Below are positions 1-14,535 of a DNA stretch of 23,314 nt, piece after piece. A program made the translations under genes and the position numbers. The first letter of the stretch is position 1. The number at the start of each line of letters is the position of its first letter. Under the pieces are notes generated by a model, which was not told the origin of the DNA, ran no database searches, and saw nothing but the letters and a program-made list of their open reading frames with translations. Source of the DNA: a virus; the IMG/VR virus record IMGVR_UViG_3300042463_000760, positions 1 to 23,314 of that record, one strand, 5' to 3'.

Positions 1-20
1 CGGGCGCCGCAAGGCGCCCG
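1..20 (-). terminator. GC-rich hairpin after the leftmost minus-strand gene
   Basis: A perfect 8-bp stem (CGGGCGCC/GGCGCCCG) with loop GCAA on the plus strand (TTGC on the minus strand) starts 9 nt beyond the TAA of the minus-strand gene 29-1093. Any U-tract would lie outside the window, so an intrinsic terminator cannot be confirmed. It differs in loop from the four cUUCGg hairpins upstream. Confidence 0.5.
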
Positions 21-28
21 CCAGAGGC

Positions 29-1093
29 TTAGAGAGACCCGCCGCGCTTCCTACCCTTGCCGGAAGGGGTAGGGGCTTCAGCGGTCGCCACAGGGGCGCC
101 AAACGCAACGCCTGGGGCGTCGGGTTCGGATTCGGCTTCAACCTGGGGAGTCACTGCGCCAGCATCAAATGCCGCCGCGACCGAGTCCTTGAAGCCTTCG
201 CGCGTGATGCGAGTCAGCACCATTTGCGCCATTTGCAGGAAAGCTGAGTCTTGGGAACGGCTTCCACCATTTGCTTGCAGGAATTCCACAAGCGCCAGCG
301 CCTTGCCAGCCTCACCTTCAATAGTGACAGTTTTTTCGTGCTTGCCACCATTGTCGAGAAAAGCGTCGAGAACGTCATCACGCAAAAAGGCTTCACCGTG
401 TTGCATGTAAAGCCGACTCGCTTCAGCAAGTTGCGAGTCACGGTTAGTCGCGCCTTTGTAGGGAAGCGCGATACCATTAACTGTTTTTGACGGGCGGCCA
501 GTATGAGTCGCGCGCTTCCCGTCAATATCGGGATTCCCGCCTTCAACCGCAGGACAGAGCTTGGCGAGCTTGGTAAAGCGGTCAGATTCGGCGATCATGC
601 GCGCTTTTTCGGCGGGGGACATATTGGAATCGGCTTTGTATGAGTCCGCCGCGTTTTCCCAATACTTCACGCGACGATTCAGCGCCGCAATAAGAGTCTG
701 GGCTGAATCACCAAGGCGAATTGTGGTGGTATATCCCGCATGTTTCCCACCTTTGGCGCTCTTATCGGTTTGAGCCGTGAAGGACGCAACAAAAGAGCGA
801 GCCGCGGCTTCCGCCGCATCACGCGCTTGCGCGCCTTCAAAATCGTTCACTTTCCCGTGAATCAGGAACGTGGCATAGGCTTGGCCGACTCGCGCAAGCC
901 CCGCGAATCGCGGCGAGCCAAAGCCCGAAGATTCGCGCTTGAGTGCTTGCGATTCGCCGCTCAATTCAGCTTGAGATTCAGCGAGTCGCTTTTCCTTTGC
1001 ACCATGCGCTTGCGTGGATTCCAATGCTTCGCGGCCAATGGTCGCGGCGAGAGCATTTAAGGTTTCAAGCGCGGAAAGATATTGAGAGTCCAT
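29..1093 (-). CDS. Unrecognised 354-aa phage protein, GANTC-rich gene
   Basis: I do not recognise a family. The protein is hydrophilic. Residues 1-60 are Ala/Glu/Gln-rich and look helical, the middle is Lys/Asp-rich, and the last 40 residues are Pro/Ala/Glu-rich and end in a basic tail (GKGRKRGGSL). No signal peptide or membrane segment is visible. The ATG at 1093 has a GGAG 9 nt upstream; an ATG-TAA pair lies between the two. The gene appears to be transcribed alone from the leader element at 1197-1253 and ends at a hairpin at 1-20. It holds about 24 GANTC sites by my hand count, roughly half in frame as Asp/Glu-Ser and the rest in the other two frames. A charged, soluble, possibly nucleic-acid-associated protein is plausible, but the function is unknown. 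Confidence 0.85.
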   Translation of the reverse strand: MDSQYLSALETLNALAATIGREALESTQAHGAKEKRLAESQAELSGESQALKRESSGFGSPRFAGLARVGQAYATFLIHGKVNDFEGAQARDAAEAAARSFVASFTAQTDKSAKGGKHAGYTTTIRLGDSAQTLIAALNRRVKYWENAADSYKADSNMSPAEKARMIAESDRFTKLAKLCPAVEGGNPDIDGKRATHTGRPSKTVNGIALPYKGATNRDSQLAEASRLYMQHGEAFLRDDVLDAFLDNGGKHEKTVTIEGEAGKALALVEFLQANGGSRSQDSAFLQMAQMVLTRITREGFKDSVAAAFDAGAVTPQVEAESEPDAPGVAFGAPVATAEAPTPSGKGRKRGGSL

Positions 1094-1094
1094 G

Positions 1095-1178
1095 TTACAT
1101 GTCTCCGATATGCGCGACGCCTTGTCGCGGCGTCGCGCGGGGTTGAATCAGCGCGCTACACCATGCGGCGCGCTGCAA
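1095..1178 (-). other. Possible 27-codon leader ORF (TTG start)
   Basis: On the minus strand an AGGA sits 5 nt before a TTG at 1178. The frame stays open for 27 codons and stops with TAA at 1097-1095, one base before the ATG of the 354-aa gene. It spans two strong hairpins. The rare start and unremarkable peptide make chance likely, but the exact abutment would suit translational coupling or a leader peptide. Confidence 0.2.
1112..1175 (-). promoter_or_regulatory. Two consecutive hairpins in the leader of the 354-aa gene
   Basis: A 10-bp stem (1112-1121 with 1129-1138, GCGCGACGCC/GGCGTCGCGC, 7-nt loop) and an 8-bp stem (1149-1156 with 1168-1175, CAGCGCGC/GCGCGCTG, 11-nt loop) occupy the 5' leader between the 57-bp element and the ATG at 1093. 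They could be regulatory or RNA-stabilising structures. No U-run follows either on the minus strand. Confidence 0.45.
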
Positions 1179-1196
1179 TCGTTTCCTATTTAAGAG

Positions 1197-1253
1197 TCAA
1201 AGAGCATCGGGGCGAACCCCTCGTTTAAGGAATCGTCAGATTCCGGATTTGCG
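1197..1253 (-). promoter_or_regulatory. 57-bp leader element, copy 1
   Basis: This element matches 2669-2725. Read on the minus strand it has a 27-bp box (begins CGCAAATCCG, ends TCTGACGATTCCTT; one mismatch between copies), a 21-nt spacer containing GGGG-TTCG-CCCC, and a 9-nt box GCTCTTTGA. The order and spacing are identical in both copies although the spacer sequences differ. It lies about 100 nt upstream of the 354-aa gene. A transcription start with a structured 5' leader is the simplest reading. No good sigma70 -35/-10 pair is visible, so a phage-specific polymerase or regulator is possible. Confidence 0.55.
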
Positions 1254-1335
1254 GACTCGCGCGAGTCACGCGCCATGTGATGCGCCGGAGCCTCGCGCGG
1301 TGGGTGTGATAGCGCGTCTTGCGCGCGGTCAAAGG

Positions 1336-1355
1336 GAGGGGGCCGAAGCCCCCTC
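1336..1355 (-). terminator. cUUCGg hairpin B, likely end of the minus-strand unit 2656-1357
   Basis: On the minus strand the TAA of the 130-aa gene is followed after one base by an 8-bp stem GAGGGGGC/GCCCCCTC with a TTCG tetraloop closed by C-G, then CCCTTT. It is the longest of four such hairpins here. It is the only one followed by a run of three T's and then by a new leader element, so it may be the true terminator of the operon. Confidence 0.6.
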
Positions 1356-1356
1356 G

Positions 1357-1749
1357 TTACGCTGGTGTAAACTCAAGCTGCCGGGCGGTTGCGATGTCTT
1401 GCGCCCGCGTGGTGAACAGCATTTTGAAAGTATCGAGGTCAGCTTGCGCGTTGTAGTAAGAATCATCATGCGCCGACTGAAGTTCTCGGAGCAGTCTGAT
1501 GTGTGGAACAAGCGACGGAGCGCAGTCTTCAATCACGATTGCGGCGGGCATTACTTCAAGATTCGGAGAGTATTTAGAATCGCTGACCCACTGACCGACC
1601 GCGCAGCGCGATCCGTTGGGAGCGTGAAGCAGACACTTATCTTCGTCTGCGGATAGCTGCGCTTGCTGCATCACCGCATTGTAGGTAAGCGAGAACACTT
1701 CTTGTTCAGATAGCGTTTCGCCGTTTTCGATTCGATTAGACAACGACAT
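1357..1749 (-). CDS. Unrecognised 130-aa phage protein
   Basis: Acidic soluble protein with no domain I recognise. Its central part carries two Cys (KCLLHAPNGSRCAVGQW) and its C-terminal third looks helical (SAHDDSYYNAQADLDTFKML). The ATG at 1749 has GGAAAGG about 8 nt upstream. It is the last gene of a four-gene minus-strand unit (2656 to 1357). It is separated from the gene upstream by a cUUCGg hairpin and followed immediately by another. The position in a block of small early-type genes suggests a host-takeover or accessory role, but nothing in the sequence shows one. Confidence 0.8.
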   Translation of the reverse strand: MSLSNRIENGETLSEQEVFSLTYNAVMQQAQLSADEDKCLLHAPNGSRCAVGQWVSDSKYSPNLEVMPAAIVIEDCAPSLVPHIRLLRELQSAHDDSYYNAQADLDTFKMLFTTRAQDIATARQLEFTPA

Positions 1750-1772
1750 AGAGAAAGCCTTTCCAGGGTTGG

Positions 1773-1792
1773 GAAGGGGCCGAAGCCCCTTC
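1773..1792 (-). repeat. cUUCGg stop-hairpin C
   Basis: On the minus strand an 8-bp stem GAAGGGGC/GCCCCTTC with a TTCG loop begins 2 nt after the TAA at 1797-1795. The ribosome-binding site of the next gene follows about 10 nt after the stem. There is no U-tract, so an intercistronic processing or stability element is more likely than a terminator. Confidence 0.6.
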
Positions 1793-1794
1793 GG

Positions 1795-2043
1795 TTAAAC
1801 CACTTCACATAGAGCCGTGTTTCCGTGGCGATCTGTGACCCGCCAGCGTGTCGCGAACGGGACTTTCTTGCGGATACTTGAGACAAGCTCTTTGAGCTTC
1901 AGCTTGTCGTCTTTCGTCTCAACTTCGATGTGAGACGCAGCGGTTGACGCTGCCGTACTCGTTCGCCAATGCCGACACTTGGCGGTCTGTTCACCAAACA
2001 TAATGGTTATGGTGTAGGTTCGGCTACCAGTGAAACCACGCAT
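1795..2043 (-). CDS. Unrecognised 82-aa phage protein
   Basis: Small basic protein, probably alpha/beta: beta-like start (SRTYTITIMFGEQ), a Thr/Ser/Ala-rich linker around residues 25-38 (TSTAASTAAS), then a Lys-rich helix (KDDKLKLKELVSSIRKK) and a final strand. The ATG at 2043 has GGAG 8 nt upstream. It is the third gene of the minus-strand unit starting at 2656. A stop-hairpin follows at 1773-1792 and another precedes it at 2074-2091. No function can be assigned. Length and basic charge would fit a small nucleic-acid- or host-protein-binding factor, but this is inference only. Confidence 0.75.
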   Translation of the reverse strand: MRGFTGSRTYTITIMFGEQTAKCRHWRTSTAASTAASHIEVETKDDKLKLKELVSSIRKKVPFATRWRVTDRHGNTALCEVV

Positions 2044-2067
2044 GTTTGCGTCTCCATTGTTCGAGGA

Positions 2068-2098
2068 AAGGGAGCGGGGCCGAAGCCCCGCCTGTTAT
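2068..2098 (-). repeat. cUUCGg stop-hairpin D (31-bp exact repeat, copy 1)
   Basis: This 31-bp segment is identical to 2441-2471. On the minus strand it includes the stop codon (ATAAC), then a 7-bp stem GCGGGGC/GCCCCGC (2074-2091) with a TTCG loop, then CCCTT. The repeat therefore starts inside the reading frame of one gene and ends in the spacer before the next. Confidence 0.65.
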
Positions 2099-2415
2099 GT
2101 TTGGCGCTGCTTTAAGTGTACCTCGCGGATACACTCTGGGCTGTATTTGCGCCACATCACGCGCCCATGCGTAATACCGCCATCGGCCTTCTCAAACACT
2201 AGAACTAGAAGGGAGGGGTGTTTCATGCTGTCAGTGAAGGCGCTCAACCCAACAACGCCGTCATATTCATAAGCGTCGCGCCTCGATGAGATTCCGATAT
2301 TGACGTGTGCCAATGTAAGCCCTTTTGATTTTTCGGCAGCGCGAAGTGCGCTCGAAAGGGCCTTGTGTTTTTGCGTGCATACGCCTTCGATAACCAGAAC
2401 ATAAGTAGCAGTCAT
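2095..2415 (-). CDS. Unrecognised 106-aa phage protein
   Basis: Small mixed alpha/beta protein beginning MTATYVLVIEG. The N-terminal strand, a helix (KALSSALRAAEKSKG), a second strand and a hydrophobic strand (SLLVLVFEKADGG) suggest a compact fold, but I do not recognise the family. ATGs at 2421 and 2415 are both in frame. The GGAG lies 2 nt before the first and 8 nt before the second, so I chose 2415. It is the second gene of the minus-strand unit from 2656, and near-identical stop-hairpins flank it on both sides. Confidence 0.78.
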   Translation of the reverse strand: MTATYVLVIEGVCTQKHKALSSALRAAEKSKGLTLAHVNIGISSRRDAYEYDGVVGLSAFTDSMKHPSLLVLVFEKADGGITHGRVMWRKYSPECIREVHLKQRQT

Positions 2416-2440
2416 TTCCATAGCTCCATTTTTCTGAGGG

Positions 2441-2471
2441 AAGGGAGCGGGGCCGAAGCCCCGCCTGTTAT
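2441..2471 (-). repeat. cUUCGg stop-hairpin E (31-bp exact repeat, copy 2)
   Basis: Exact copy of 2068-2098, with the stem at 2447-2464. It begins at the stop codon of the 62-aa gene and ends before the ribosome-binding site of the 106-aa gene. No U-tract follows. Confidence 0.65.
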
Positions 2472-2656
2472 CCGTAAATCGCTGCCAACGCGCCCATCGT
2501 GCCATAATAGCCAATGGCGCCTGCTGCCAGGATCAAGCCAGCATTGAGCGATGCAGACATTGCCCGCTCTAGCTTGGGACGTGCCTCGCGCGTCACATAG
2601 AATGAGCCGCCGATACCACCGACACGCCAGAAGTATATTCCGCCTGACTTCTTCAT
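2468..2656 (-). CDS. Small 62-aa membrane-associated protein
   Basis: First gene of the minus-strand unit. The ATG at 2656 has AAGGGA 6 nt upstream and lies 12 nt after the 9-nt box of the 57-bp leader element. After a basic first half (residues 1-32, including REARPKLERAM), residues 34-62 are hydrophobic and small-residue rich (LNAGLILAAGAIGYYGTMG), consistent with one membrane-spanning segment and almost no C-terminal tail. A small early membrane protein (host-interaction, exclusion or holin-like) is possible. No family is recognised. Confidence 0.72.
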   Translation of the reverse strand: MKKSGGIYFWRVGGIGGSFYVTREARPKLERAMSASLNAGLILAAGAIGYYGTMGALAAIYG

Positions 2657-2668
2657 CTGATTCCCTTT

Positions 2669-2725
2669 TCAAAGAGCGAGTAGGTTGACCCTACAAACAA
2701 GGAATCGTCAGATTTCGGATTTGCG
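2669..2725 (-). promoter_or_regulatory. 57-bp leader element, copy 2
   Basis: Second copy of the element at 1197-1253: 27-bp box (2699-2725), 21-nt spacer (2678-2698) and 9-nt box (2669-2677). Here the spacer forms GTAGG-GTCAA-CCTAC on the minus strand, a different sequence folding at the same place as in copy 1. It directly precedes the ribosome-binding site and ATG of the 62-aa gene. It is probably the promoter and/or leader RNA of the minus-strand unit 2656-1357. Confidence 0.6.
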
Positions 2726-2731
2726 CCAGCG

Positions 2732-2752
2732 CCCCCACCCACCCCCACCCCC
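2732..2752 (-). other. G-quadruplex motif on the minus strand
   Basis: The minus strand reads G5-T-G5-T-G3-T-G5 within 21 nt, with single-base loops, which is the pattern expected of a very stable parallel quadruplex. It lies 6 nt upstream of the 27-bp box of the minus-strand leader element, in the 242-bp divergent spacer 2657-2898. The rest of 2753-2820 is C-rich with no gene. Confidence 0.65.
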
Positions 2753-2822
2753 ATCTGGACAACGCCCCCAGGCCCGGCCTTGAGGCAGGAGGTAAGCCCC
2801 ACATACCCCCGACACCAAAAAT

Positions 2823-2864
2823 AAAAGTATACTTTTACCCTTGAAACCCCCTAAAAAGTATACT
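2823..2864 (+). promoter_or_regulatory. Twin AAAAGTATACT operator-like sites
   Basis: AAAAGTATACTTTT at 2823-2836 is a perfect 14-bp palindrome. AAAAGTATACT recurs at 2854-2864. The GTATAC centres are 31 bp apart, close to three helical turns. The second copy overlaps the spacer and the edge of the -10 of the promoter at 2841-2869. A dimeric regulator binding both sites is an inference; the ribbon-helix-helix protein at 3436-3690 is a nearby candidate. Confidence 0.5.
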
Positions 2865-2869
2865 ATATA
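2841..2869 (+). promoter_or_regulatory. Sigma70-like promoter for the 2899-4249 operon
   Basis: TTGAAA at 2841-2846 is followed after exactly 17 nt by TATATA at 2864-2869. A start near 2876 would give a leader of about 20 nt before the ATG at 2899. The AT-rich block stands out in an otherwise GC-rich spacer. Confidence 0.6.
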
Positions 2870-2898
2870 CCCCCTATCCCCAACACCAAGGAGCCCCG

Positions 2899-3273
2899 AT
2901 GTCCCAAGAACATGAAATCGAAAAAATCCTGACCGACAAAGGCAAAAACGCGCCACGACTTACCCCCGAGATGATTGATTCGGTAATTGTCGGAGAGGAT
3001 TGCTACGTGTTTCCGAACACAACTTTGACTGTGTGTGTACTGAAGCTGCGCAATGGTTTCGTCGTGACAGGAGAAAGCGCCTCAGCGTCACCAGAAAACT
3101 TCGATGCCGATGTTGGCCGGCGCATCGCCCGCGACAACGCGCGCAAGAAAGTGTGGATGCTCGAAGGTTATTTACTGCGCCAACGACTCCATGAACTCGA
3201 ACCTCGCGACCTCGAACCTCGCGATCTCGAACCAAGACTCGACATGCAAACGGAGAATCAACCCAATGGCTGA
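2899..3273 (+). CDS. N4 gp49 / Sf6 gene 66 family protein
   Basis: A 124-aa protein. Residues about 20-98 match the remembered pattern of the N4 gp49/phage Sf6 gene 66 family: Thr-rich strand with Cys (TTLTVCVLKLRNGF), VTGES, NFD-x5-GR, then A-x-x-A-x-x-x-W and a hydrophobic helix (MLEGYLLRQRL). The family is common in proteobacterial phages and its role is not known to me. The C-terminal tail carries three 5-residue repeats (DLEPR). The ATG at 2899 has AAGGAG 5 nt upstream and a promoter just before it. It is the first gene of a four-gene plus-strand operon and overlaps the next gene by 8 nt. Confidence 0.88.
   Translation: MSQEHEIEKILTDKGKNAPRLTPEMIDSVIVGEDCYVFPNTTLTVCVLKLRNGFVVTGESASASPENFDADVGRRIARDNARKKVWMLEGYLLRQRLHELEPRDLEPRDLEPRLDMQTENQPNG
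3196..3240 (+). repeat. Three 15-nt tandem repeats encoding LEPRD
   Basis: Units at 3196-3210 and 3211-3225 differ only in the last base. The third (3226-3240) matches for 8 nt and then diverges. They encode an in-frame Leu-Glu-Pro-Arg-Asp tail extension of the gp49-family protein and look like a recent slippage expansion. Confidence 0.8.
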
Positions 3274-3433
3274 ATACCCATATATCAACCCTGCCGTGCC
3301 CACCGTCGTGAAAGTTGAACTGGACAACACGCGCCTTCCAGACAATCTATTCGTCCGTCCCGACGGAACGATTGTATTGCGCAACTGCACCATTACACGC
3401 GATAACCCGCGTCAGACAATTCGAGAGGAATGA
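3266..3433 (+). CDS. Small 55-aa hypothetical protein
   Basis: The ATG at 3266 overlaps the end of the preceding gene. GGAG lies 9-10 nt upstream. The protein (starts MAEYPYINPAVPTVV, ends TRDNPRQTIREE) has alternating polar and hydrophobic residues that suggest a small beta-rich fold (VVKVELDNT, TIVLRNCTITR). No family is recognised. Its stop lies 2 nt before the preferred start of the ribbon-helix-helix gene, so translation is probably coupled. Its overlaps and position within a compact operon support a real gene. Confidence 0.7.
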   Translation: MAEYPYINPAVPTVVKVELDNTRLPDNLFVRPDGTIVLRNCTITRDNPRQTIREE

Positions 3434-3435
3434 CG

Positions 3436-3690
3436 ATGGCGCGACGAAAACTCGATGAAAAACTCCAACCAATCACCATCAGGATTACCCCGATGCAGAT
3501 GCTTCGGTTGGAGCGCGTGACGGCCTATGACGGCCTGCCAACACAAGACCATATCCGCCGTGCGCTTGATCAATACCTTAACGAGTACGAGAAGGCGCAC
3601 AAACTCGCACCCCTTCACGAAATCAACAGTCTACTGCGCCAAGCAGAGGCGCTCCATCCGAAACAAACAGGAGAAGACCATGACTCGTAA
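3436..3690 (+). CDS. Ribbon-helix-helix (CopG/Arc-like) DNA-binding protein
   Basis: An 84-aa protein. Residues 11-55 fit the RHH pattern: a short strand with alternating residues (PITIRITP), then helix 1 (MQMLRLERVTAYDG) and helix 2 (TQDHIRRALDQYLNEYEK). RHH dimers insert the paired strands into the major groove and usually act as repressors of nearby promoters. The twin sites at 2823-2864 are a plausible target, by inference. Two starts are possible: ATG 3430 has GAGG only 1-2 nt away, whereas ATG 3436 has it 7 nt away, so 3436 is preferred. It overlaps the next gene by 11 nt. Confidence 0.82.
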   Translation: MARRKLDEKLQPITIRITPMQMLRLERVTAYDGLPTQDHIRRALDQYLNEYEKAHKLAPLHEINSLLRQAEALHPKQTGEDHDS

Positions 3691-4249
3691 AACTGCTGCG
3701 AATCCCAAGACAAAACCAAAAGCGAAGGGTGGTTCGACCTACGCGAACAAACCAAAGGTGAAGGTGAAACCAAAGACAAAGCGCGACGCCCGCAAGAGTG
3801 ACACGAAAGAGCTTCGCTGCGCGCCGACGTTCTATGTCATTCGCGCGTTCTGTATTCACTTCCTTGCCGAGCAGGGCATGCCGACGGAAGAAATCGCGCA
3901 GCGCCTCGATGTGAATCGCTCGTTCGTGATCAAGCAGTCAACGCTCGTCATGACGCCGCGCACGGAGCAGGAGAAGCGCATTTATGACATTGCGAAAACG
4001 ATGTCTGAAGCCTTCAGACTGGCCAACATTGACGGCCTGTTGTTTGGGCGCGATCTGGTGACGAAACTTGCCGGGCGCGTTTCCACGCCGCCAGCAAACT
4101 CGAAAGCAATGGAGCGTATGAAGGCGCGGGTAGAGAAGCCGAATATCTTGGCTGAATCCTTGGCCACATCTAAAACAAAGAAGGGTAGGCCGAGCGCGAA
4201 GAAGCTGAAGTTGGCGGCGCCGCAAAAACCGCTTGACATGAGGGATTAG
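3680..4249 (+). CDS. Basic HTH-like DNA-binding protein
   Basis: A 189-aa protein. Residues 1-45 are extremely Lys/Thr/Pro-rich (KPKVKVKPKTKRDARK). Residues about 58-88 look like a helix-turn-helix (FLAEQGMPTEEIAQRLDVNR, then SFVIKQS). A helical region follows, and a second basic tail (KTKKGRPSAKKLK) ends in DMRD. It is probably a DNA-binding regulator or nucleoid-type protein. A small-terminase role is possible from the HTH but less likely, because another candidate lies next to the large terminase. ATG 3680 has GGAG 6 nt upstream inside the end of the previous gene. It is last in the operon, followed by two hairpins. Confidence 0.75.
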   Translation: MTRKTAANPKTKPKAKGGSTYANKPKVKVKPKTKRDARKSDTKELRCAPTFYVIRAFCIHFLAEQGMPTEEIAQRLDVNRSFVIKQSTLVMTPRTEQEKRIYDIAKTMSEAFRLANIDGLLFGRDLVTKLAGRVSTPPANSKAMERMKARVEKPNILAESLATSKTKKGRPSAKKLKLAAPQKPLDMRD

Positions 4250-4266
4250 CCCCTCATAAAGTCTCT

Positions 4267-4291
4267 AGGTGGTTTGGTTCCCCAACCACCT
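4267..4291 (+). terminator. Hairpin after the 2899-4249 operon
   Basis: AGGTGGTT (4267-4274) pairs with AACCACCT (4284-4291), 8 bp with a 9-nt loop, 17 nt after the TAG of the HTH gene. A weak T-containing tail follows (TGACGTTTCC). It is a likely first terminator, in tandem with 4313-4362. Confidence 0.5.
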
Positions 4292-4312
4292 TGACGTTTC
4301 CTCCCTAAACTT

Positions 4313-12753: not shown

Positions 12754-14535
12754 ATGCCAATCGTTTTCAAGAACAACGCCGCAACGACGATTGCCAATCA
12801 GGTTCTCTTGTCGGATACGACGGTTGTGGTCGCGGCTGGAACTGGCTCGCGTTTCCCCGCACCTTCCGGTGGTGATTCGTTCTTCGCGACGATTCAATCC
12901 GGTACGAACTACGAAATCGTAGAGGTCACGAATCGCTCTGGCGATGTTCTGACGGTCGTTCGCGGGCGTGACGGGACTCTTTCGCAGTTGTGGAATCCTG
13001 GCTCATCCATTGATATTCGGATTCCGAATATCGTCCTGAACAGGTTTGTTCAGATGGATGCTTCTGGGAATGTGAATGTTTCTGGAAATGTTGGGATCGG
13101 CACTGCGCCTGGAACATTAGGGATTACGGCGCGGTTGGAGTTGATCACACCGAATGGGACGGCGAGCCGACTCCTGTTGGGGCAATCTGGTGTGTCTAAC
13201 TATTCGTGGATGATTCCGGCCTCAACCGATGCACTAGCTTTGGTTTATGGTTCAGCCGCAGAACGCATGCGTATTGACGCAAGCGGTAACGTCGGCATCG
13301 GCACAAGCGCGCCTACTGCGAAGTTGGAAGTCGCTAATGGCGCTATTGCGCTAAGAAGCGCAGTACCTGAAGTCGTTTGGTATGAAACAGACACCAGCAC
13401 TACATTCAGGACTTTAGTTGACGCCGGATCGTGGGACGTTCGGCGTAACGATTATACAAATTTATTTTCTGTGTACTATCTAACCGGAAACACACTTTTA
13501 TGTCCGATAGCGGGAAACGTCGGCATAGGTACAAGTGCACCCGCCACCAAATTGCATGTACTTGGTGGTGATGGGTCGTCTATCGTTCGAATTGCCGGAC
13601 CTTCATATGCCACCCGGTTTGTATCAGCACCGGGCGCGGGCAGTTATATTGAGTCCACTTCTCCAAATGGGTCCACTTACGAACCGCTTATTTTGGGCGG
13701 TTCTACGCTTATTTTCACAACTTTCGGCATGGAAAAGGCCCGTATATCCGGCACGGGAAATTGGGGTTTCGGGCTCACGAACCCTGGGTATCCTGTAACA
13801 ATCGCGGCGAACGGCACCTCTGCCGCACTGCGTCTTGTCGGGAGACCGACTGACAATATCTCGACTCTTGAGTTTTCAAAAAATGACCAGTCAGATGCTT
13901 GCGCGTTTATTCAAGCTGGCACTGATTACCTTCAGTTCGGGCCTGGGACAACGCCTAGGTTTTACCTAGGAAGTGACGGGTCCAGACTCTCAAAATCTCA
14001 AGGAGTCACCGACTGGCTCCCCGAGTTCATGTGCCGCGCCGTAGCCAACTTCAGTGGTGTACCACTCGCCGGTACGTACTCGCGCACTGATACGACAATC
14101 ACAGTGACAATGACCGCCCACGGGATGACAACCGGGCAGCGTGTGGAGCTTGACTTCACTACTGGCGCCGGCACCGATGGGAGTTATATCGTTACGGTTG
14201 TTAATGCAAACACGTTCACAGTAACCGACACCGCCTCGGGAGCGACTTCAGGTAACGTCACGCGGTTGACTTGGCTCCGACATGGTGGGAACATTGCGCG
14301 TATCGAGAAAGTGTCAACAGGGCGGTATAGACTCACGTTTTCAACCGCAATGCCGACCAGAACTTACGTCGTGAACCCCTCAGCAAGTGCAGACAACGTA
14401 GCCATGAACGCTGTTGTACCTATGGTCTGGGGCGATACTAGATTAACAACAAGTTTTGAGGTCGGTATATCTGACAACAACACAGACACAGGACCGTTTG
14501 ACTATCCTCAGATAGATATATCCGTCTTCCGCTAA
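12754..14535 (+). CDS. Tail fibre protein
   Basis: A 593-aa fibre. Residues 1-100 are a phage-proximal domain (VVVRGRDGT-like: EVTNRSGDVLTVVRGRDGTL). The shaft has four spaced GNVGIGT-type repeats at about residues 110, 178, 254 and 335 (the fourth is degenerate, GNWGFGL). A small beta domain at about 445-505 (TITVTMTAHGMTTGQRVELD) resembles Ig-like modules of fibres. The C-terminal domain (TGRYRLTFSTAMPTRTYVVN) probably binds the receptor. No S74 self-cleaving chaperone is present. ATG 12754 has GAGG 7 nt upstream. Codon use differs from its neighbours, with about nine AGA/AGG Arg codons, suggesting exchange of this gene between phages. Confidence 0.88.
   Translation: MPIVFKNNAATTIANQVLLSDTTVVVAAGTGSRFPAPSGGDSFFATIQSGTNYEIVEVTNRSGDVLTVVRGRDGTLSQLWNPGSSIDIRIPNIVLNRFVQMDASGNVNVSGNVGIGTAPGTLGITARLELITPNGTASRLLLGQSGVSNYSWMIPASTDALALVYGSAAERMRIDASGNVGIGTSAPTAKLEVANGAIALRSAVPEVVWYETDTSTTFRTLVDAGSWDVRRNDYTNLFSVYYLTGNTLLCPIAGNVGIGTSAPATKLHVLGGDGSSIVRIAGPSYATRFVSAPGAGSYIESTSPNGSTYEPLILGGSTLIFTTFGMEKARISGTGNWGFGLTNPGYPVTIAANGTSAALRLVGRPTDNISTLEFSKNDQSDACAFIQAGTDYLQFGPGTTPRFYLGSDGSRLSKSQGVTDWLPEFMCRAVANFSGVPLAGTYSRTDTTITVTMTAHGMTTGQRVELDFTTGAGTDGSYIVTVVNANTFTVTDTASGATSGNVTRLTWLRHGGNIARIEKVSTGRYRLTFSTAMPTRTYVVNPSASADNVAMNAVVPMVWGDTRLTTSFEVGISDNNTDTGPFDYPQIDISVFR

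Follow-up and report, generated by a model that had tools for sequence, protein, structure and literature searches.

Antitermination in phages is usually described as the work of phage proteins (N or Q) or of an RNA acting alone, as in put. In the nut sites of lambda, boxA comes first and boxB follows. The rRNA operons have the order boxB, boxA, boxC, and boxA is necessary and sufficient for assembly of the complex (PMC10250234). BoxA also occurs outside rRNA operons, as in the 5′ UTR of suhB, and the gammaproteobacterial form of the motif is GYTCTTTAANA (PMC5725501). The put RNAs of HK022 are paired stem-loops in early phage leaders and are not known to be built on boxA (PMC9378689).

The window analyzed here is the whole 23,314-nucleotide stretch of an IMG/VR viral contig, and its portal, terminase, and major head genes point to a phage of the short-tailed type. 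An Rfam scan of the window returned nothing but one tRNA, and named phages showed no DNA similarity to it. Two related contigs (L003/L015 and L004/L016) are 81–90% alike to it in DNA over shared segments. The closest named relative is Rhizobium phage RHph_TM3_14A (L014 and L090; hereafter TM3_14A), which is complete at 60.9 kb and has a terminase 53% identical. The sole match among prophage relatives was one distant Nitrospirae MAG.

Two elements on the minus strand of the window share the same architecture. Their 27-bp boxes, at 1227–1253 (element 1) and 2699–2725 (element 2), are identical at 26 of 27 positions, and the expected number of chance pairs of 27-mers with one mismatch or fewer in the window is ~3e-6. 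Each box is followed by a spacer of exactly 21 nt (1206–1226 and 2678–2698) and then by a 9-nt box, TCAAAGAGC (GCTCTTTGA on the minus strand), which is identical at 1197–1205 and 2669–2677. On the minus strand, element 1 (1253–1197) reads CGCAAATCCGGAATCTGACGATTCCTT-AAACGAGGGGTTCGCCCCGAT-GCTCTTTGA, and element 2 (2725–2669) reads CGCAAATCCGAAATCTGACGATTCCTT-GTTTGTAGGGTCAACCTACTC-GCTCTTTGA. The spacers form hairpins of different sequence at the same place, GGGG-TTCG-CCCC at 1220–1209 and GTAGG-GTCAA-CCTAC at 2694–2680. The box pair with its single mismatch, the fixed spacer with the shared 9-nt box, and the paired hairpins had all been proposed in a sequence-only reading of this DNA and were confirmed at both elements. 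That reading also placed each element at the head of a minus-strand transcription unit. This is fully apparent for element 2, which lies in a divergent intergenic region ahead of the gene for a 62-aa protein (2656–2468, minus strand), whereas element 1 sits inside a same-strand gene series, in a 260-bp gap ahead of the gene for a 354-aa protein (1093–29, minus strand) that has no family match. The element 1 region follows a terminator-like hairpin, AGGGGGCTTCGGCCCCCT (1354–1337, minus strand), and a T-rich tail follows this hairpin in L003/L004 and L008. The 62-aa gene is very short, and its product carries the motif GGxxFWxxG..GGSFY; several relatives also start the leader unit with such a gene, with counterparts in L008 (5887) and L078 (12533) and a weaker one in TM3_14A (L014, 8646). 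Further copies of the 27-bp box before early genes would have supported that reading; this record holds no third one. Exact searches of viral contigs for the box, and for TCTGACGATTCCT plus CTCTTTGA, gave no match, because the 27-bp box itself diverges.

Judged from its letters, the 9-nt box is a boxA of the alphaproteobacterial rRNA-leader type. The comparison set was 13 alphaproteobacterial rRNA leaders from plasmids and chromids, with a Burkholderia leader as the outsider, and a weight matrix was built from 12 distinct boxA sites of alphaproteobacterial rRNA leaders without any phage sequence. Host examples are GCTCTTTGAAAATTGAAT (Gemmobacter) and GCTCTTTGACATTGTTAG (Sphingobium). The alphaproteobacterial form contains TTTGACA, and the base that distinguishes it from the gammaproteobacterial form is G in the phage. 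The boxA of element 2, GCTCTTTGAAAAGGGAAT (2660–2677, minus strand), scored 21.8 bits and outranked every other site on either strand of the window, the best of 200 shuffled windows reaching 21.5 bits with this alphaproteobacterial matrix, which may not be that of the window's host. The boxA of element 1, GCTCTTTGACTCTTAAAT (1188–1205, minus strand), scored 10.8 bits and ranked fifth in the window; its first 9 nt are identical to those of element 2, and its match to the rRNA boxA is limited to these nine. Its orthologues scored 17.1 in L008 (rank 1), 21.0 in L078 (rank 1), and 13.5 in L015 (rank 3). The leader site was also the top matrix site in L015, L008, L018, L078, TM3_14A (L014), L066, and L086. 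The six best matrix sites over the loci of all relatives (in L033, L086, L014, L016, the window, and L078) are each preceded directly by a strong hairpin, against a background of 14%, and the best sites in distant relatives, TM3_14A included, are hairpin–boxA leaders that mostly head early genes. GCTCTTTGA is rare among the relatives, with five sites in 16 records, the leaders of L078 and TM3_14A among them. Weaker boxA forms are found in element 2 of L007 and L008 (GCTCTTTCTC) and of L018 and L078 (GCTCTTTCAC). By eye, a boxC-like CGTGTGCGGCGG follows boxA in L066 only, as in host leaders, and none was evident downstream of boxA in the window.

A hairpin lies immediately 5′ of boxA in both elements and in the relatives, and most of the 13 host rRNA leaders examined likewise have one just ahead of boxA. 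We refer to this boxB-like structure as hairpin 2 (1209–1220 in element 1 and 2680–2694 in element 2, minus strand). Across the window, L015, and L008, two of the four pairs of hairpin 2 in element 1 are changed on both sides, and all four stay paired. In element 2, every pair is kept in five sequences, and one of six varies (G-C, A-U, or G-U). These compensatory changes are support rather than proof of a conserved hairpin; the alignments are small (three and five sequences), and the shuffle controls (56/500 and 200/500) were not decisively passed. The support comes from the relatives, since neither window element folds more stably than shuffles (z of −1.6 and 0.04), and an alternative predicted fold of element 1 pairs boxA with the hairpin.

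The leaders can be followed through the relatives. L003/L015 and L004/L016 have both elements in the same places as the window. Both are also present in L008, and element 2 in L007 and L009. The more distant L018 and L078 share CGATTCCT, GCTCTTT, and a hairpin with these leaders. In TM3_14A, the divergent region before the early genes contains a large hairpin, then TAGGC-GGTG-GCCTA, and then GCTCTTTGACATCGTGAATAGG. Two tandem hairpins occur in the window clade, TM3_14A, and L033. Between boxA and the first gene, TM3_14A, L033, L066, and L078 have 300–500 nt with no clear gene. As to the surroundings of the leaders, L078 carries cctgctgtg in tandem copies in the interval separating a terminator from the leader (14020–14135), and L018 has three repeats of ~50 nt ahead of it (12930–13060).

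The 27-bp box behaves differently from boxA. Its core in element 2, CGATTCCT (2707–2700), is retained in L007, L008, L018, and L078, and the copy of element 1 is kept in close relatives. The stretch preceding CGATTCCT varies from phage to phage, with the copies in any one phage nearly identical. From the window to L015, both copies changed in parallel (T to G and A to G), and both-copy changes are seen in L015/L016, consistent with a trans-acting factor or with conversion between the copies. A third copy occurs in L078 (13488), where it comes with a hairpin, lacks boxA, and precedes a single-gene unit closed by a strong terminator. The box is a phage-specific element separate from the putative antitermination signal and is most likely a promoter or operator region. 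Sigma70-like −35/−10 hexamers are absent from it, and no minus-strand promoter-like site was found in 1–4300. The earlier suggestion that a phage-specific polymerase may use a promoter here is unsupported: a T7-type polymerase (PF00940) was detected in none of 15 related records, including the complete TM3_14A, in a search whose control was also without a match, and the polymerase on which boxA acts is that of the host. A second hairpin within the box, hairpin 1, reads GGAATC-TGAC-GATTCC in element 1 (1229–1244, minus strand), where five of six pairs are invariant and one is broken in L008, and GAAATC-TGAC-GATTCC, an imperfect stem, in element 2 (2701–2716, minus strand). Hairpin 1 was rejected as a conserved RNA structure; it has mismatches in element 2 of the window and in L008 without compensation and is absent in L018 and L078.

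In element 1, hairpin 1 also forms a GANTC dyad. GANTC is 1.55-fold enriched in the window, and GAYTC-N12/13-GARTC pairs (start-to-start distance of 17 or 18 bp) occur 21 times, with ~0.5 expected per spacing, about one per kb, also within genes (for example, at 676, 887, 5374, 6409, 7929, 10933, 13985, and 22975). The same spacing peak was found in L015, L008, L078, L018, L020, and L105–L108. The GANTC pairs are a distributed dyad site. The opposite is seen in the complete TM3_14A (60.9 kb; L014 and L090) and in 17 kb of L023, from which GANTC is wholly absent.

Other elements flank the leaders. Upstream of the element 1 leaders, GCGCTATCACACC (1303–1315, minus strand) is conserved in the window, L003, L004, L008, L018, and L078, and is possibly part of a promoter or operator. 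A G-rich element, CCAGATGGGGGTGGGGGTGGGTGGGGG/CCAGATGGGGGTGGGGG (2731–2758, minus strand), lies upstream of element 2, and its CAGATGGGGG is conserved in L007, L008, L009, L015, L016, L027, L063, L066, L067, L078, and TM3_14A. Even phages with terminases no more than 40–55% alike keep it ahead of the leader, and it may be a G-quadruplex, an origin, or a packaging site. Farther into the divergent region (2822–2880), AAAAGTATACTTTT is found with a second GTATAC palindrome; the GTATAC palindromes lie near the gene for a small ribbon-helix-helix-like protein (3430–3690) and are possible repressor operators. Terminator-like hairpins follow most early genes, and nearly identical GGGGCTTCGGCCCC hairpins stand after early genes at 1766–1795, 2063–2098, and 2436–2471 on the minus strand, with copies up to 97% alike.

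Here, we propose that both elements act as 5′ leaders of early units on the minus strand and probably carry an antitermination signal of the rRNA type, acting via host Nus factors, based on the sequence match, the conservation of the hairpin, and the position. The host RNA polymerase would start near the 27-bp box and transcribe hairpin 2 and boxA. The signal would be the boxB-like hairpin followed within 0–4 nt by boxA (GCUCUUUGA). By analogy with rRNA operons, host NusB–S10 would bind boxA in the nascent RNA and, with NusA, NusG, and SuhB, would make the host polymerase resistant to Rho and perhaps to the terminator-like hairpins that separate early genes. An N-like protein from the phage would not be required. 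These Nus steps follow the general picture of rRNA antitermination. Resistance to Rho would fit both the gene-free stretches of 300–500 nt after boxA, a typical Rho target, and the terminator-like hairpins after the early genes. The phage leader resembles the rRNA leader, with its NusB, S10, NusA, NusG, and SuhB, in having an alphaproteobacterial boxA with a hairpin directly upstream, in the same order, at the head of a long unit; it differs in preceding phage protein genes, in having a phage-specific 27-bp box, and in the lack of a clear boxC in the window. The antitermination leader of the sequence-only reading is strongly supported by sequence, because the 9-nt box is a host rRNA-type boxA after a conserved boxB-like hairpin, and the position and kind of the leader are conserved in distant relatives.

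The same features can be read without antitermination. If the 27-bp box were a promoter read with a phage-encoded factor, the hairpin could be a stabilizer of the mRNA 5′ end, and the 9-nt box could be kept for another reason, such as its start-site or ribosome-binding context. The near identity of the box within a phage and its divergence between phages, except for CGATTCCT (the window, L008, L018, and L078), agree with such a promoter, as does the third copy in L078, where box and hairpin precede a single-gene unit without boxA. This explanation is unlikely, however, as it accounts neither for the match to the host rRNA boxA in unrelated leaders nor for the hairpin–boxA order, and the box has no sigma70-like hexamers. 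As in suhB, where it lowers expression (PMC5725501), boxA might instead repress translation of the first gene or favor its early termination. In element 2, boxA adjoins the ribosome-binding site, 13 nt before the ATG (2656). In element 1, TM3_14A, L033, L066, and L078, by contrast, boxA lies 100–500 nt before the first gene, and we regard a role of this kind as very unlikely. In suhB, moreover, boxA represses a host gene; the leaders here head early units of a phage and place a hairpin ahead of boxA.

Two phage systems also have to be weighed. A lambda-type nut site, in which an N-like phage protein would bind hairpin 1 or 2 and act with boxA, is suggested by the lambdoid phages, which head early operons with a hairpin and boxA (PMC10250234; mEpimmI phages, PMC11893012), as the leaders do here. 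However, the order of hairpin then boxA is the reverse of that in lambda nut and is of the rRNA operon type. The stems and loops of hairpin 2 are wholly different between the elements (TTCG versus GTCAA), unlike those of a bound boxB, and ten proteins scanned around the leaders gave no match to an N-like family, N being short and diverse and the record a fragment. A nut site is thus quite unlikely. The tandem hairpins of the window clade, TM3_14A, and L033 recall the paired stem-loops of put, which would act directly on RNA polymerase. Since L018 and L078 have no hairpin 1, the aligned sequences show no compensatory changes in it, and boxA is conserved instead, a put-like RNA is highly improbable.

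The rRNA-type signal that we favor may extend well beyond this phage. Among viral contigs, 53 stretches contain the 18-mer GCTCTTTGACATYGTGAA, which is of the same boxA type, and one contains the reversed 18-mer that served as control; a second boxA form was found in at least 120 stretches. A strong hairpin directly upstream was 2.4 to 3 times as frequent at the boxA matches as in the background (21% versus 8.7% for the 18-mer), and by this crude test most of the viral matches are without one. Contamination by rRNA operons was rejected as their source; no 16S gene began within 700 nt of a tested match, and 13 loci covering both boxA patterns contained no rRNA. One viral contig, L176, also carries a type II hammerhead ribozyme (1416–1484). 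We tentatively suggest, as an idea somewhat short of an even chance, that a widespread class of phages has replaced N–nut by copies of the antitermination signal that hosts use for rRNA, adapted to the host clade's boxA dialect and joined to a fast-evolving, phage-specific start-site box whose copies change together within one phage. No description of phages copying this host signal was found in the literature searched, which covered few subscription journals. If true, this would be an antitermination route without a phage protein and would explain how phages lacking such genes pass Rho, and the boxA dialect of an uncultured phage would serve as a sequence-based clue to the clade of its host.
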